Shown here one piece after another: positions 22,836 to 29,620 of a DNA stretch of 34,129 nt. The notes beneath the pieces are model-generated. The model was not told where the DNA came from, did not search any database, and saw only the letters and a program-made list of their open reading frames with translations. The translations under genes were made by a program, and so were the position numbers. Source of the DNA: Ignavibacteriales bacterium (GTDB lineage Bacteria; Bacteroidota; Ignavibacteria; Ignavibacteriales; Ignavibacteriaceae). The stretch is taken from NCBI GenBank assembly GCA_020061465.1, contig JAGUYG010000096.1:1-34129 (forward strand), in the 5' to 3' direction. The first letter of the stretch is position 1. Each line of letters starts with the position of its first letter.

Positions 22836-22897
22836 TTATGCGCTCTTTAGATATGAAATTAAATGCACTTGACAATTAAATTAAGCGCACTTAAATT
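22836..22897 (+). promoter_or_regulatory. dtxR operon promoter with three evenly spaced operator-like sites
   Basis: TTGACA (22869-22874), 17 bases, TAAATT (22892-22897) is a good sigma-70-type promoter ending 22 bases before the ATG at 22920. Three related 14-mers overlap it: TTATGCGCTCTTTA (22836-22849), TTAAATGCACTTGA (22859-22872) and TTAAGCGCACTTAA (22881-22894). The third is a palindrome at 6 of 7 base pairs and sits across the spacer and -10 box. Sites 1 and 2 each match site 3 at 11 of 14 positions. Centres are 23 and 22 bases apart, about two helix turns, so dimers would line up on one face. Autoregulation by the first gene is inferred. Confidence 0.5.
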
Positions 22898-22919: not shown

Positions 22920-23579
22920 ATGCAAAATATATCTAAAGAAGACTACCTCAGCGTCATTTATAAGCATAAGGACGAAAGCGGCGAAATTAAACCGAATGTT
23001 ATTGCCGATAAGCTGCAAATATCCAGTCCGGCTGTTACGGATATGTTAAAAAAATTAGTAAAGGACGGTTACATTAAATATAAGAAATATAAAGGCATCA
23101 GATTGACTGAGACAGGTGAGGAGTACGCCAGAAATATGGTAAGACGACACAGAATTTGGGAAGTATTTCTTCATCAAGTTGTCGGGCTGCCATGGGATCA
23201 GGTTCACGACGAAGCGCATAATCTCGAACATTCGGGCTCGGATACTTTAATAAACAGATTGGAAGAAATGCTTGATTTTCCCGAGTTCGATCCTCACGGC
23301 GATCCCATCCCTTCAAAAAGCGGAATTGTTCCAAAACAAAAGAATGCTGTAGCATTAACTCTTCTAAACAAAAATCAAAAGGGTGTGGTTATAAGAGTTA
23401 ATGATTTCGACAATGACTTTTTAAAATATATTTCGAAAATCGGTATCAAGCTAAATAAAAAAATTGTGGTAAAAGATATTCTCGAGTTTGATCGTTCTAT
23501 GATACTTGTGATTGAAAAAAAAGAAGTGAATGTAAGCAGTACAGTTGCTGCAAACATTTTTGTTAAACTCGCAAAATAA
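22920..23579 (+). CDS. DtxR/MntR-family metal-dependent repressor
   Basis: 219 residues from the ATG at 22920; an ATG at 22863 would place the promoter inside the gene. Winged-helix DNA-binding domain (1-65, VIADKLQISSPAVTDMLKKL is the recognition region), metal/dimerisation domain (70-130; [27 protein letters not shown]) and a C-terminal SH3/FeoA-like domain (~140-219). Metal ligands by alignment to DtxR: His77, Glu81, His96, His100 (Cys102 in DtxR), Glu103, His104. Position 8 is Asp, as in the manganese regulator MntR, where DtxR has Met. It should bind DNA when Fe2+ or Mn2+ is plentiful and shut the operon. It is the first gene of the feo-like cluster, 19 bases before the next. Confidence 0.9.
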   Translation: MQNISKEDYLSVIYKHKDESGEIKPNVIADKLQISSPAVTDMLKKLVKDGYIKYKKYKGIRLTETGEEYARNMVRRHRIWEVFLHQVVGLPWDQVHDEAHNLEHSGSDTLINRLEEMLDFPEFDPHGDPIPSKSGIVPKQKNAVALTLLNKNQKGVVIRVNDFDNDFLKYISKIGIKLNKKIVVKDILEFDRSMILVIEKKEVNVSSTVAANIFVKLAK

Positions 23580-23598: not shown

Positions 23599-24618
23599 AT
23601 GATGATGGAAAATCCATTTTTAATGTTAATAGCCGGAATTGTGTTTATAATACTCGTTGCCATTATATTTTGGCCGGAAAAAGGAATTATCCCGCGCCGT
23701 TCAAAAATAAACAAAACAAATGTACGTGTATTAATTGAAGATGCACTCAAGCATCTTTATGACTGTGAATACACTAACTTAACCTGCACTATTCACAGTG
23801 TTGCCGGAAGCCTTCATATTTCCGGTAATGATGCTGCAAATCTAATTTCAAAACTTGAAGCAATGGGTCTAATCAAATCTTCATCTGATTCGCTCCTTTT
23901 AACTCCGGAAGGAAGATCTTATGCACTTAGAGTTATAAGAGTTCATCGTTTGTGGGAAAGATATCTTGCAGATGAAACCAGCATAAGTGAAACCGAATGG
24001 CATACAATTGCCGAAGAAAAAGAGCATGCTATTAGTTTCGAACAAGCCAACATGCTTGCGGCACAGCTAGGCAATCCGATAATTGATCCGCATGGGGATC
24101 CTATACCATCTGATACCTTGCAAATGCCTGCACGGAGAGGGATTCCGCTTACTTCTCTAAAGGAAGGAGAATCTGCAACAATAATCCATATTGAAGATGA
24201 ACCGGAAGAGATTTATGAACAATTAGTTGCCGAAGGTTTGTATCCTGGAGTTCAGGTAAGAATGGTTGAATCGACCACTAAAAGAATTAGATTTTCTGCT
24301 GATAGTGAAGAATGTGTTTTAGCCCCTTCATTTGCTTTAAATGTAACTGTTGTTCCTATTCCCAAAGAAGAGGAGATGAAAGAATATTTAACACTTTCTA
24401 AACTGAAACAAGGAAAGGAAGCAAAAGTGGTGCGAATATCAACGGTTATTAGAGGGCAGCAGCGCAGAAGATTAATGGATTTTGGAATTGTTCCGGGAAC
24501 AAAAATTACCGCAGAGCTTTCCAGCCTGGGAAGCGATCCCGTTGCATACAAAATTAGAGGCGCTCTTGTTGCTTTAAGAAGAAACCATACAGATCATATT
24601 TTTATTGAAGAAGTGTGA
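23599..24618 (+). CDS. Membrane-anchored DtxR-like domain fused to two FeoA domains
   Basis: 339 residues. One N-terminal membrane helix ([19 protein letters not shown], ~7-25) is followed by basic residues (PRRSKINK), predicting a cytoplasmic C-terminal bulk. Then comes a DtxR-like winged helix (~38-105) and metal/dimer domain with HRLWE (His116, Glu120) and [10 protein letters not shown] (His135, Glu139, Glu142, His143), plus DPHGDPIP as in the first regulator. Two FeoA/SH3-like domains follow: 181-253 ([18 protein letters not shown]) and 264-338 ([44 protein letters not shown]). FeoA domains are small partners of FeoB; here they are joined to a metal-sensing module at the membrane, next to the FeoB genes. 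I infer a sensor that gates transport directly, but a membrane-bound repressor is possible. Confidence 0.85.
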
Positions 24619-24625
24619 AATTAAA

Positions 24626-25474
24626 ATGAGAAATACAAATCATTGCCAAAATTGTTCCGCCCACAATATCGGTAACCTGGTTAAGCTAGGTATTAATATG
24701 GAAAATTTCGATTACGTAATTGCACTTGCGGGAAATCCCAATACTGGGAAGAGCACCGTGTTTAATAAGCTTACCGGACTTCGTCAGCACACAGGCAACT
24801 GGCCTGGCAAAACAGTTGCCCGTGCTGAAGGTGGATATATATTTAGTGAGAAGAGGTATAAAATTGTTGACCTGCCGGGAACATATTCACTTCTTTCCAC
24901 AAGCTCCGATGAAGAGGTTGCAAGAAATTTTATTCTCTTCGGTCAACCGGATGTAACCGTAATAGTTGCAGACGCAACAAGGCTTGAAAGAAATCTGAAT
25001 CTTGTACTTCAAATTTTAGAAATAACTAACCGTGCAGTTTTATGCTTAAACCTAATTGATGAAGCCGATAGAAACAACATAAAAGTTGATGAAAGAATCC
25101 TTTCAAAAGAACTGGGTATTCCTGTTGTTCCTACTGCTGCAAGGCAAGGAACCGGAATGGATATGCTGCTCAATTTTATTCACCAGGTTGCAACCGGAAA
25201 GTACGTTTGTAAACCTCATAGAATTACTGCCGATTTCCCGGCAGTAAAAAATGCCGTTAATCGTCTCTCAAAAAAAATATCCGAAACATACCTAAATCTG
25301 CCGAATGCGCGCTGGATTGCACTACGTTTACTTGAAGGAGACCAAAGAGTTATTGATGCCGTACGGAACAATGAATTACAAGACCTGGTCTCGGAACGAT
25401 CCTTTCCGAAGGATCCTTCGGACGGAAAAGAACAAAATTTAAATATAAGCGATGTACTTGAACCTGTTGTTTAA
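24626..25474 (+). CDS. FeoB small GTPase domain protein (N-terminal half of FeoB)
   Basis: 282 residues from the ATG at 24626; a TTG at 24605 would overlap the previous gene. A CxxC (HCQNC) opens the protein, then the GTPase: G1 GNPNTGKST, switch [10 protein letters not shown]3 DLPGTYSL, G4 NLIDEAD (Leu in place of the usual Met/Lys), G5 near PTAARQGTG, then the helical GDP-release domain with [11 protein letters not shown]. It stops where the FeoB membrane domain would begin; that domain is encoded by the next gene in another frame, 20 bases on. Similar split FeoB pairs exist in other Bacteroidota relatives (from memory), so it need not be broken. The segment [12 protein letters not shown] near the end is encoded by an inserted palindrome pair (25391-25422). 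It supplies the nucleotide switch for Fe2+ or Mn2+ uptake. Confidence 0.88.
25391..25422. repeat. GGATC-family repeat pair inside the FeoB GTPase gene
   Basis: TCGGAACGATCC (25391-25402) is followed by a perfect 18-bp palindrome TCCGAAGGATCCTTCGGA (25405-25422), the cleanest copy of this family in the window. It is translated as [11 protein letters not shown] and keeps the frame, 50 bases before the stop. Confidence 0.9.
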
Positions 25475-25494: not shown

Positions 25495-26925
25495 ATGAAT
25501 GAAAAAATTACTCAAAAAGGCTATTCAATAATAGCCGAAGCAAATATGCTTAGATGGGAAGTTGGTGAAAATTTTCATGATGCACTTATGGAATCAATCT
25601 ATGCCGATGCACAAAAAATAGCCGATAAAGCTGTGGTAATGTTAGGTGCAGAAAAGAAATTCGGTTTTGATCAAACGCTTGATAAAATTGTTACAAGCAA
25701 ATGGCTTGGTTTTCCATTAATGTTCTTGACGCTTGCAGTTGTTTTTTGGATTACAATAGAAGGTTCAAACGTACCTTCTTCTATGCTTGCCGCATTGCTT
25801 GTAGATACTTTTCATCCTGCATTAAAAACATTTGCGGTGAATGTCAGTCTTCCATGGTGGCTGAGCGGAGTACTGATTGACGGAGCATATCTTGCAATGG
25901 CATGGGTAGTGGCGGTTATGCTTCCACCAATGGCAATCTTTTTCCCATTGTTTACATTATTGGAAGATTTTGGTTATTTGCCGCGCGTTGCTTTTAATAT
26001 GGATGGATTGTACCGAAAAGTTGGTGCACACGGTAAGCAGGCTCTAACAATGAGCATGGGTTTTGGATGCAACGCTGCAGGTGTTATTTCTACAAGAATA
26101 ATTGATAGCCCCCGCGAAAGAATAATTGCAATTATTACAAATAATTTTTCGCTTTGTAACGGCAGATGGCCCACTCAAATATTAATTGCAACAATATTTA
26201 TCGGTGCTGCCTTTCCTGCATATCTTGCAGGCATTATTTCTGCACTTGCCGTTGTAGGCATTGCTTTACTCGGAATATTTTTTAGCCTTGTAACATCATG
26301 GGGATTATCAAAAACAATTTTAAAAGGAGAGGCTTCCGTTTTCAGCCTTGAGCTGCCGCCTTATCGCCCGCCGAGGATTTTGCAAACACTTTATACTTCT
26401 TTAATTGATCGAACAATTTTTGTTTTATGGCGCGCTGTCGTTTTTGCACTTCCGGCGGGAGTAGTTATATGGCTGGTTGCAAATATTCATATCGGGGATT
26501 TAAGCCTTGCGCAGCATTTCATTTCCTGGTCTAATCCCTTCGGATTATTGCTGGGATTAAACGGTGTAATTTTACTTGCCTATATAATTGCCGTTCCGGC
26601 TAATGAAATTGTTATACCGACTATTTTAATGCTGACAGTGATGACACTCGGTATTGTTGACGTAAGTGCCGGAACCGGAGTAATGTTCGAGCTTGAATCG
26701 GAGATGTTAACTAAAGAGATACTTGTTGCAGGCGGATGGACAACTTTAACAGGTATATCACTTATGCTATTCAGCCTTTTACATAATCCTTGCTCAACAA
26801 CACTATATACAATTTATAAAGAAACGGGAAGTATAAAGTGGACAACTGTTTCTGCGTTACTGCCAATTGCTATAGGCTTTGCAGTTTGCTTTTTCGTTAC
26901 ACAAATATGGAGGCTGATTGCTTAA
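25495..26925 (+). CDS. FeoB membrane transport domain (nucleoside-recognition/Gate protein)
   Basis: 476 residues. It opens with the remaining FeoB helical linker ([22 protein letters not shown]) and then has about ten membrane segments with two Gate motifs. Key site: [39 protein letters not shown] (positions ~186-224), with the conserved Cys of the GCN motif thought to line the metal pathway and a second Cys in SLCNGR. The second Gate motif includes [16 protein letters not shown], and the end [20 protein letters not shown] is typical. It is the permease for divalent iron or manganese, working with the GTPase encoded just before. Its start is 20 bases after that gene and in a different frame. 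Confidence 0.92.
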
Positions 26926-27703
26926 ATCAAAATTAACTTTTATGATTTATTTCATAATGATTTTTTACGCTTTCAATACGTCTGCTCAAATGCATGAACA
27001 TCCTTTAATAACCGACCGTCCGGATCAAACCGAATCACCGAATGCAGTTCGGTTAGGAAGCATTCAGTTTGAATCAGGTTTTGTTTATACAAGTTTTATA
27101 CAAAAGCATTTAGAATCGGATATGTTTACTCTTGCATCCTCGCTAATAAGATACGGTTTATTTAAAAATTTCGAATTAAGAATCGGCTTTGAATATTTAA
27201 CAAGCCGGATTAAAGAAAATAATATTGAATCTTCTGTCTACGGATTTGGTCCGCTTCATTTAGGAGGTAAATATCATTTTATGCATGCCGGAGAAGTACC
27301 GGTTGATGCCGGAGTATTGTTTGGATTCACACTTCCTATCGGGGAACGGTACTTTCGACCCAAAAATATTGAGCCGGAATTAATTATTTCGATAGCACAT
27401 TATTTATCGGATATATTTTCACTGGCAACTAACTTAGGCACTGTTTGGAACAGTTATGAAAAAGAATTGATCGGATTATATACATTAGTTTTTGGGATAA
27501 GCCTGACTGAAAAAATTGGCATCTTCACGGAAGTTTTCGGAAATTATTCTTCGGGAAATTCCACTTCAAATAGTATCACCGGAGGCATTACATATTTACT
27601 ATCAAATAATTTGCAGTTAGATTCTTCGGCAGGATTTGAGCATACAAACTATGATAGACACTTCTTCATAAATACCGGTATTTCAGTTCGGTTCGGTAAA
27701 TAA
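26918..27703 (+). CDS. Outer-membrane-type beta-barrel protein (phenol MetA-degradation/transporter family)
   Basis: 261 residues. A signal peptide ([18 protein letters not shown], cleaved near NTSAQ) precedes [20 protein letters not shown], the opening typical of Phenol_MetA_deg-like outer-membrane proteins. The rest alternates short amphipathic strands and ends in VRFGK, consistent with a barrel. TTG at 26918 is the likely start: it overlaps the end of the transporter gene by 8 bases and has GGAGG four bases ahead; ATG at 26942 would lose the basic n-region. Overlap means translational coupling, so this protein belongs with the metal-transport genes; a channel for metal entry across the outer membrane is a reasonable but unproven idea. 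Confidence 0.75.
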
Positions 27704-27787: not shown

Positions 27788-29020
27788 ATGAGTGAATTTA
27801 TAAATAATAGTACGCAACGCGTAAATAAGCTGAAAGAACTTATCTTAAAGCTGCATGAAGGTGTAACAGTTGAAGAAACAAGAAAAGAACTAACTGAAGC
27901 TATGGCAGCAGTTCCTTACGGGGAAGTTGTAAGGGCTGAGGAGGAATTAATCGCCGGTGGATTACCAAAGGAAGAAATACTCAAATTTTGTGACATTCAT
28001 ACTGATGCTTTGAAAGGGAAAATTGACACTTCGGCAGCTAAGTCTGTACCTGACGGACACCCGGTTCACACTTTTATCAAAGAGAATGACGAAATTATAA
28101 AAACCACCGCTAAGATCAGAAGTATCGTAAACGAAATAAAAGGTAAAGAAGATACCGCAGATGCATCGGATGAGATGATGCAGATGCGAACTTTATTCAA
28201 CTCATTGATGGATGTTGAAAAGCATTATTTAAGGAAAGAAAATTTAGTATTTCCTTTTCTTGAAAAGTACAATATAACCGGACCGCCAATGGTTATGTGG
28301 GGCAAACACGATGAAATAAGATCGTTCCTAAAATCTTCGATGCAGATTTTTGAATCATCACCAAATCCTTCCATCGAAGAATTAAATGGATATATTGAAT
28401 TTATGTTTGAACCAACATTGAAGGCAATCGAAGAAATGATTTACAAGGAAGAGAAGATTCTTTTCCCGATGTGTCTTGATGCATTAACTGAGATCGATTG
28501 GTACGAAATCTATCAACAAAGCGACGAAATAGGATTCACTCTTTATTTTCCTCAAGCCGAATGGAAACCGACAGAGCTTTCTGATATTGACCTGAAGAAA
28601 CCGGATACGAAAAAAATTAAACTTCCAACCGGGTCATTTACACCAGAAGAACTTGAAGGAATTTTCAACAGTCTTCCATTCGATTTAACATTTGTGGATA
28701 AAGAAGATAACGTCAGGTTTTTTTCTCACGGTGAAGAAAGAATTTTTCAGAGGAATAAAGCCATTTTAGGCAGGAAAGTTCAGTATTGTCATCCGCCTTC
28801 GAGCGTTCATATTGTTAATCAAATATTGGATGATTTTAAATCGGGTAAACAAAGCTCAGCTAAATTTTGGATAAACTTCAGGGGAATGTATGTACTGATA
28901 GCTTATTACGCTGTCAGAAATGAAAGGAATAAATATTTAGGCACGCTTGAAGTTACACAGGATATAGCACCATTGAAAAAAATTGAAGGTGAGAGGAGAC
29001 TGCTGACTTATGACAACTAA
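27788..29020 (+). CDS. DUF438 protein with hemerythrin and PAS domains
   Basis: 410 residues, cytoplasmic. DUF438 domain (~12-78), hemerythrin-like HHE four-helix bundle (~88-235) and a PAS-like domain (~285-405). Candidate di-iron ligands: His91/His94 (DGHPVHTFIKEND), His146 and Glu151 (MDVEKHYLRKENL), His174 (MWGKHDEI), and Glu221/222 (MIYKEEKILFP). The PAS part has FVDKEDNVRFFSH, GRKVQYCHPPSSVH (a His that could bind heme or metal) and LGTLEVTQDI. Such proteins occur with DUF1858/DUF2249 genes and are tied to O2, NO or iron sensing in anaerobes; the molecular function is unproven. AAGGA gives the ribosome site. It follows the metal operon by 84 bases but has its own candidate promoter. Confidence 0.88.
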   Translation: MSEFINNSTQRVNKLKELILKLHEGVTVEETRKELTEAMAAVPYGEVVRAEEELIAGGLPKEEILKFCDIHTDALKGKIDTSAAKSVPDGHPVHTFIKENDEIIKTTAKIRSIVNEIKGKEDTADASDEMMQMRTLFNSLMDVEKHYLRKENLVFPFLEKYNITGPPMVMWGKHDEIRSFLKSSMQIFESSPNPSIEELNGYIEFMFEPTLKAIEEMIYKEEKILFPMCLDALTEIDWYEIYQQSDEIGFTLYFPQAEWKPTELSDIDLKKPDTKKIKLPTGSFTPEELEGIFNSLPFDLTFVDKEDNVRFFSHGEERIFQRNKAILGRKVQYCHPPSSVHIVNQILDDFKSGKQSSAKFWINFRGMYVLIAYYAVRNERNKYLGTLEVTQDIAPLKKIEGERRLLTYDN

Positions 29021-29059
29021 AAAATATTTTTATTGATTATAATGATTTGACTTAAAGAA

Positions 29060-29620
29060 ATGGAGACAACACTAATGGAGGAAATTTTTTTTACTGAAAA
29101 GATAGATATTACCCCTAACACGTTGATTGCAGATTTGATAGAGCGATATCCTCATCTGGAAGATAAGCTGATTGAAATAGCCCCGGTATTCAAGAAGCTG
29201 AAAAATCCGGTACTGCGCCGGACAATTGCAAAAGTAACAAACTTAAGACAAGCGGCGGTAGTGGCTAACATAAATTTGGGTGAACTGATAAATAAAATTA
29301 GAGCCGGGGCAGGACAATCTATACAAAAAATAGAAGAAGTCGAAGGGTATTCACTAAGCGAAAAACCCGAATGGCTGAAAGAATACGCTGTAAAAATAAT
29401 TTACGATGCAAGGGAAGGTCTTGAAAACGGCATTCATCCAATTGCCAAAGTATTGAATGATATAAAGAATTTGAATGAAGGTGAAATTTACCTGCTAATT
29501 ACTCCGTTCATACCCGCACCTCTGATTGATATACTTCAGCAAAAGACTTTCAACACATACACGGTAGAAGCCGGCAGCAATGAAGTTAAGACATTTATCT
29601 CGACTAATACCCTTAACTAA
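29060..29620 (+). CDS. DUF1858 / DUF2249 domain protein
   Basis: 186 residues from 29060; the ATG at 29075 has the better ribosome site (GGAGA 9 bases ahead) and gives 181 residues. N-terminal DUF1858 domain: KIDITPNTLIADLIERYPHLEDKLI, FKKLKNPVLRRTIAKVTNLRQAA, helical and small as in ScdA/RIC-type proteins. C-terminal DUF2249 (~115-182): IYDAREGLENGIHPIAKVL, EGEIYLLITPFIPAPLIDIL. These domains accompany hemerythrins in iron-sulfur repair and nitric-oxide response. It is 39 bases after the DUF438 gene, probably the same transcript. No metal-binding Cys pair typical of RIC is seen, so a direct repair function is not claimed. Confidence 0.82.
   Translation: METTLMEEIFFTEKIDITPNTLIADLIERYPHLEDKLIEIAPVFKKLKNPVLRRTIAKVTNLRQAAVVANINLGELINKIRAGAGQSIQKIEEVEGYSLSEKPEWLKEYAVKIIYDAREGLENGIHPIAKVLNDIKNLNEGEIYLLITPFIPAPLIDILQQKTFNTYTVEAGSNEVKTFISTNTLN

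Follow-up and report, generated by a model that had tools for sequence, protein, structure and literature searches.

A membrane-tethered MntR-like protein with a C-terminal FeoA domain as a candidate post-translational metal sensor of an adjacent FeoB-type importer

The open reading frame at 23599–24618 (+ strand) of a 34,129-nucleotide stretch of DNA from an Ignavibacteriales bacterium, here called the window, encodes a protein of 339 aa without internal stop. It is referred to as TMDF (membrane-tethered MntR-like sensor with a C-terminal FeoA domain), a label coined in this analysis for its family. TMDF probably serves the adjacent FeoB-type importer as its FeoA subunit and carries, in the same chain, a tethered Mn(II)/Fe(II) sensor that would adjust FeoB post-translationally, with transcription under the control of a separate DtxR. 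As read from the sequences, the protein combines a predicted membrane helix, an MntR core with conserved ligands, a decayed DNA-binding face and a canonical FeoA domain, and pairs almost obligatorily with one FeoB subfamily. The probable start of translation is the third ATG (23605), which corresponds to the start in most homologues.

TMDF has a single N-terminal hydrophobic segment, with a 19-residue Kyte-Doolittle mean of 3.13 and values of at most 1.15 elsewhere, and the AlphaFold model (74-row alignment, pLDDT 95, pTM 0.87) places a helix at residues 6–24 (23614–23670), followed by PxxG at residues 26–29 and by a helix at residues 30–58 that continues into the winged helix; the membrane helix proposed in the initial annotation is thus borne out. 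An artefact or misplaced start behind the helix was rejected, since the helix is found in 70 of 76 testable loci, mostly at a fixed spacing to the winged helix-turn-helix (wHTH) domain; these loci come from the best 80 of 590 relatives, fetched from public genome contigs, a sample leaning towards close relatives, and among them L123, scored as helix-less, may be a plain DtxR and L115 is borderline (1.51). A cleaved signal peptide was also rejected, since in each of the 70 tethered loci (best 80 of 590) the 15 residues following the helix have a positive net charge. By this charge the flank reads as cytosolic, and the short N-terminus would accordingly be placed outside the cell.

The remainder of the chain is divided into four parts, all on the + strand. 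A degenerate winged helix, delimited by Pfam and conservation, covers residues 44–101 (23728–23901), and is followed by the metal-binding and dimerisation domain (residues 102–170, 23902–24108) with H116, E120, H135, E139, E142 and H143, to which D48 is added from helix 1. DtxR domain 3, which is SH3/FeoA-like, covers residues 182–254 (24142–24360) and has the motif HIEDEP with H197 and D200, and the FeoA domain proper (FeoA2) lies at residues 264–338 (24388–24612), as assigned by Pfam, structure and the presence of a free FeoA at the same position in four genomes. Pfam identifies Fe_dep_repr_C at residues 102–170 (E 2.5e-21) and two FeoA segments (E 2e-25, the best at 265–337), while the DNA-binding model Fe_dep_repress reaches only E 0.16 in the window protein, under the curated cut-off; the winged-helix fold itself is nevertheless retained in the predicted structure. 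Residues 45–254 of the model superimpose on the whole Mn-dependent repressor 5zr6 of D. radiodurans with Z 26.2 and an rmsd of 1.4 over 206 residues, and residues 264–339 on B. fragilis FeoA 7r7b with Z 14.4 and an rmsd of 1.5 over 74. Because the fit to 5zr6 includes the whole repressor, the first "FeoA" is DtxR domain 3, and two independently acquired FeoA domains were rejected. Of the two FeoA domains initially annotated, the C-terminal one is therefore genuine and the other belongs to the repressor core, and the additions to a full-length DtxR/MntR core are, by the model, one membrane helix and one FeoA. TMDF shares the three-domain fold of 5zr6, which differs in being a soluble DNA-binding repressor. 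Two FeoA-like domains in one protein have already been published (PMC8749426).

The family is found with E<1e-60 in 60 of 97 genomes, including that of the window, and all five genomes of group f3 are without it. A TMDF-like match is present in 78 of the best 80 of 590 fetched loci, and 74 usable loci from this set are distributed over ten named phyla as labelled, mainly Bacteroidota (21), Chloroflexota (17), Ignavibacteriota (8), Gemmatimonadota (8) and Acidobacteriota (7), where single labels may be wrong because most loci are metagenome assemblies. In a plasmid search no record covered 80% of the query, the best match being from Prevotella.

Immediately downstream of TMDF is a split feoB, as the initial annotation stated, with the GTPase part at 24627–25474 (Pfam; the listed frame opens at TTG 24605 but ATG 24627 is more likely) and the membrane part, of a distinct subfamily by Pfam and pore motifs, at 25495–26925, both on the + strand. 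All 75 testable loci (best 80 of 590) have a feoB gene at most 400 bp downstream of TMDF, so that the linkage to feoB holds throughout; exclusive linkage to the split form was rejected, as 54 of these are split and 21 unsplit. The converse survey, starting from the FeoB, gave the strongest result. The subfamily linked to TMDF was detected in 38 of 296 Bacteroidota genomes with E 4e-187 or better, a count that leaves out a 39th match (E 9e-41, 28% identical), and in 34 of these 38 TMDF is located upstream on the same strand, with the membrane part of FeoB starting 789–1381 bp after it. The remaining four have a free FeoA of 77–81 aa at the position of TMDF, with a soluble DtxR adjacent. This replacement indicates that the last domain of TMDF is the FeoA subunit of this FeoB, and TMDF would thus behave as a FeoA with a tethered sensor. 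FeoA2 scores above the Pfam cut-off, has the FeoA fold and is the sole FeoA encoded with its feoB; in the 78 loci scanned (best 80 of 590; 47 with at least 4 kb on both sides) only three small FeoA frames were detected, all belonging to other feoB genes. The clamp positions of FeoA named in PMC8980893 are hydrophobic at four of five sites in TMDF, and in the FeoAB fusion described there FeoA stabilises GTP-bound FeoB. TMDF has the FeoA fold and the position beside FeoB in common with such FeoA and FeoAB proteins (B. fragilis 7r7b), which differ, as described, in that FeoA is free or fused to FeoB and has no sensor attached.

The linked FeoBs have pore motifs of their own. C192-N-A-A, C221-N-G-R, A369-N-E and H430-N-P-C are among the core residues invariant in 69 of 69 proteins, and in canonical FeoBs most of these residues, with the exception of C, A369, E and R224, are different, the comparison being between 69 linked FeoBs of >400 aa and >45% identity and only three canonical ones. 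When the membrane part was searched by sequence against the PDB, the single match had E 0.82 and no credible relative was found. Of 73 linked FeoB proteins with a recognisable first GTPase motif (best 80 of 590), 66 carry a CxxC before it; in the window this pattern is located at 24627–24720. The perfect palindrome TCCGAAGGATCCTTCGGA (25405–25422) is located in frame close to the C-terminal end of the GTPase gene; 117 sites in the genome match it when up to 2 mismatches are allowed, against 0 for the backwards control. It is a dispersed palindromic repeat within coding sequence, reminiscent of the Rickettsia palindromic elements. The membrane gene is overlapped by 8 bp by an outer-membrane-type Phenol_MetA_deg frame (26918–27703), homologues of which come after feoB in L040 and L080, and the region 27788–29620 encodes a DUF438-hemerythrin-PAS protein followed by a DUF1858/DUF2249 protein.

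The metal site of TMDF appears to have been conserved while the DNA-binding face was lost. In the alignment, which consists of the window protein and 73 of the 78 loci (best 80 of 590; L067, L078, L120 and L123 were dropped as truncated or doubtful and L085 as a near copy of L082), H116, E120, H135, E142, H143, H197 and D200 are invariant in all 74 rows, D48 is kept in 71 of 74 and E139 is E or D in 63 of 74. These positions are presumed to be the MntR ligands, by alignment and by MntR numbering. At E 0.001, Fe_dep_repress matches 5 of the 74 TMDFs (best 80 of 590) compared with 38 of 38 ordinary DtxRs encoded at these loci, which were chosen by likeness to the intact DtxR of the window and are thus biased towards intact ones; none of these 38 has a membrane helix. 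In 37 same-locus pairs (best 80 of 590) the entropy of the wHTH is 2.32 bits in TMDF and 1.78 bits in the neighbouring DtxR, whereas their metal domains have the same level (1.37 and 1.39 bits). The mean net charge of the helix-turn-helix is -1.0 in TMDF and +2.1 in the neighbour, which is the more positive in 29 of the 37 pairs (Wilcoxon p 3.5e-5). The family features of DtxR/MntR found in TMDF are thus the metal/dimerisation domain and the SH3-like third domain; a recognisable wHTH and, judged by hydrophobicity, solubility are absent. The initial description of a winged helix with a mostly intact metal site was accordingly too cautious about the site, which is intact, and has to be modified for the DNA-binding part, which has degenerated.

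These observations bear on two other readings of the protein. It is unlikely that TMDF is a membrane-tethered transcription factor of the YtgCR kind, with a wHTH that still binds the operator of the operon either in place or after proteolytic release. In Chlamydia, cleavage frees YtgR from the ABC-3 permease YtgC and YtgR then represses (PMC7755916, PMC5599777), the helix and linker of TMDF match those of ABC-3-DtxR fusions, and the related PgMntR binds DNA (PMC4805248), but the DNA-binding model is missed in 69 of 74 TMDFs (best 80 of 590), the recognition helix is variable and acidic, and an intact DtxR directly upstream in 29 of 72 loci (best 80 of 590; same strand) can explain the operator. 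Quite improbable is a DtxR part that serves as a scaffold only, anchoring or dimerising FeoA at the membrane and sensing nothing: FeoA2 is the FeoA subunit and 4 of 38 genomes make do with a free FeoA, as this would predict, but seven presumed ligand positions have stayed invariant in 74 sequences (best 80 of 590) assigned by label to ten named phyla while the wHTH surface drifted.

The transcriptional function is more readily assigned to the gene upstream. An ordinary soluble repressor of the DtxR/MntR type, with wHTH, dimerisation and SH3/FeoA-like domains, is encoded at 22920–23579 (+ strand), and is matched by Fe_dep_repress (1.5e-16), Fe_dep_repr_C (2.7e-31) and FeoA (1e-9). A probable promoter, TTGACA-17-TAAATT, is located at 22869–22897 on the same strand with a palindromic putative operator, TTAAGCGCACTTAA, between the hexamers at 22881–22894; a longer DtxR frame from 22863 would enclose this operator. 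The same class of operator is found upstream of DtxR in 29 of 29 regions with a relaxed pattern and in 21 of 29 with a strict one, the window included, against shuffle means of 0.88 and 0.005, where the relaxed pattern was written after inspection of the sequences and the shuffles preserve single-base content only. L010, with an upstream region that is not intergenic, and L046, L048 and L122, copies of L020, L022 and L021, were left out of this count. The 4.2 Mb genome contains three strict sites, the other two inside long open reading frames, and the pattern with one mismatch shows no genome-wide enrichment (90 places, control 148). A promoter scan of the region gave 12 sites compared with 17.7 in shuffles, and the promoter call therefore rests on the conserved operator and its location. 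The dual switch of the initial annotation, transcriptional and post-translational, is plausible given this separate intact DtxR with a putative operator of its own.

Helix and linker of TMDF likely have a common ancestry with those of ABC-3-DtxR fusions, whatever the direction. In ten such fusions from Bacteroidota the last helix is followed by PxxG and then by an acidic residue at G+18 in 8 of 10 (Q in two), a position that corresponds to E47 in TMDF, and the order and spacing of helix, PxxG, 17-residue linker, wHTH and metal/dimerisation domain are the same. PxxG is present in 59 of 70 tethered TMDFs (best 80 of 590), 58 of these with E at G+18; this set of 70 differs slightly from that of the helix count, with L115 and L085 in and L067 out. 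The motif was found near the C-terminus of none of 20 unfused ABC-3 permeases of relatives, which may be another subfamily. An unrooted tree of 75 rows, with about every second TMDF and DtxR, has three clades, namely TMDF with nested TM-less forms (100/98), the ABC-3 fusions (97/84) and the DtxRs (100/98), and being unrooted it gives no answer on TMDF and the ABC-3 fusions as sisters. The TM-less forms require about three changes, which are losses if the tether is ancestral, and include the helix-less Prevotella relative L045 on a long branch. In YtgCR, compared by its description, and the ABC-3 fusions, unlike TMDF, the sensor is within the permease chain and there is no FeoA2 and no feoB. 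Permease-repressor fusions are reported from 11 phyla, as cited in PMC5599777. A single chain at locus L219 contains an ABC-3 permease, the dimerisation domain of a DtxR and a FeoA/SH3 domain, with domain 3 over the Pfam cut-off. A possible history, offered tentatively, is that the membrane-anchored MntR module split from an ABC-3-DtxR fusion and moved to FeoB, a transporter of an unrelated type, where DNA binding was lost and the module came to serve as an allosteric gauge of metal on the FeoA subunit; one cassette would then directly brake importers of two superfamilies, alongside transcriptional control.

The closest described protein is PgMntR of Porphyromonas gingivalis (PG1044), compared here by its published description in PMC4805248. 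Like TMDF it has an MntR/DtxR core and a second C-terminal FeoA with FeoB in the operon, and by spacing its potential domain 3 ligands H166, D169 and E170 correspond to H197, D200 and E201, and its Cys108 to Glu139 of the window protein. It differs in being soluble, encoded by a 933 bp gene, with a DNA-binding domain predicted at 13–65, and is described as a DNA-binding repressor; it binds its own promoter, and loss of the second FeoA abolishes both Mn and DNA binding (PMC4805248).

The cargo of the linked FeoB is more likely to be manganese than iron, as judged from indirect evidence. Strong Nramp matches (E<1e-100) and TMDF largely exclude one another: of 96 genomes, 2 have both, 58 have TMDF alone, 19 Nramp alone and 17 neither (Fisher p 2e-8; G060, with the gene cut by a contig end, left out). 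The same holds by genus (2/31/10/9, p 2.5e-4) and with all Nramp over the cut-off (7/53/24/12, 96 genomes, p 4e-8), although the exclusion is partly lineage-bound, as the five f3 genomes without TMDF show. In several TMDF-less genomes an Nramp gene is by coordinates beside the same DtxR, which was confirmed on reading two loci, and an ABC-3 permease-DtxR fusion is near this DtxR slot in two further loci read. The same class of putative operator is present in all four, and MntH or an ABC-3-DtxR fusion in the same slot with the same operator indicates manganese. No such avoidance of TMDF is seen for ABC-3 permeases taken together, some match being found in 50 of 97 genomes including many TMDF carriers; in the window genome (G000) searches for ABC-3 (PF00950) and Nramp gave no match, and PF00950 was also unmatched in the TMDF protein. 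At L041 (genome G001) an Nramp gene is located between the DtxR and TMDF genes, which places two importers in one DtxR slot, and the MntH in the DtxR slot of L252 bears a C-terminal universal-stress (Usp) domain.

That the same tethered sensor sits on a ferrous-iron importer, a mechanism overlapping with the one preferred, is considered rather unlikely. FeoB is named as an Fe(II) transporter, DtxR proteins can sense Fe(II) and PgMntR binds both Mn and Fe (PMC4805248), which speaks for it. Against iron speak the occurrence of MntH and ABC-3-DtxR fusions in the same slot with the same operator, the altered pore motifs, and a canonical feoA-feoB-fur locus (feoB 678 aa) elsewhere in the window genome; moreover, FeoB2 of P. 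gingivalis, in one operon with the twin-FeoA PgMntR, is reported as a Mn transporter in the same source.

In the favoured mechanism, with TMDF as a tethered gauge on FeoB, the linked FeoB would import Mn(II), perhaps also Fe(II), and cytosolic Mn(II)/Fe(II) would fill the MntR site of a membrane TMDF dimer. The filled site might then alter the engagement of the GTPase of FeoB by the FeoA domain, so that uptake is adjusted, most simply throttled, ahead of any transcriptional response, with the tether holding the sensor at the transporter and the soluble DtxR repressing the operon via the putative operator at 22881–22894. That high metal would slow uptake is a guess based on what homeostasis would call for. 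The proposal that TMDF controls the transporter rather than transcription draws on the presence of feoB beside TMDF (75 of 75 testable loci from the best 80 of 590, and 34 of 34 Bacteroidota genomes), on a degenerate DNA-binding domain with a conserved sensor and on FeoA2 as the FeoA subunit. Points against it are the DNA binding of soluble PgMntR, the TM-less TMDFs, the four genomes with free FeoA, and the 5 of 74 proteins (best 80 of 590) that match Fe_dep_repress; because of the TM-less members and the free FeoA, neither tether nor sensor can be strictly required. A membrane-tethered DtxR with decayed wHTH as the FeoA subunit of FeoB was not found in searches covering open-licence PMC papers.

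The finding touches two open questions, the role of FeoA for FeoB and how bacterial metal importers can be closed more quickly than transcription would permit. A metal switch of understood structure, fused to FeoA and tied to the membrane beside the transporter, would offer a testable system for metal-gated FeoB, and the linked FeoB subfamily may be a widespread manganese importer. Some apparent metal-dependent transcriptional regulators may thus not be transcription factors.
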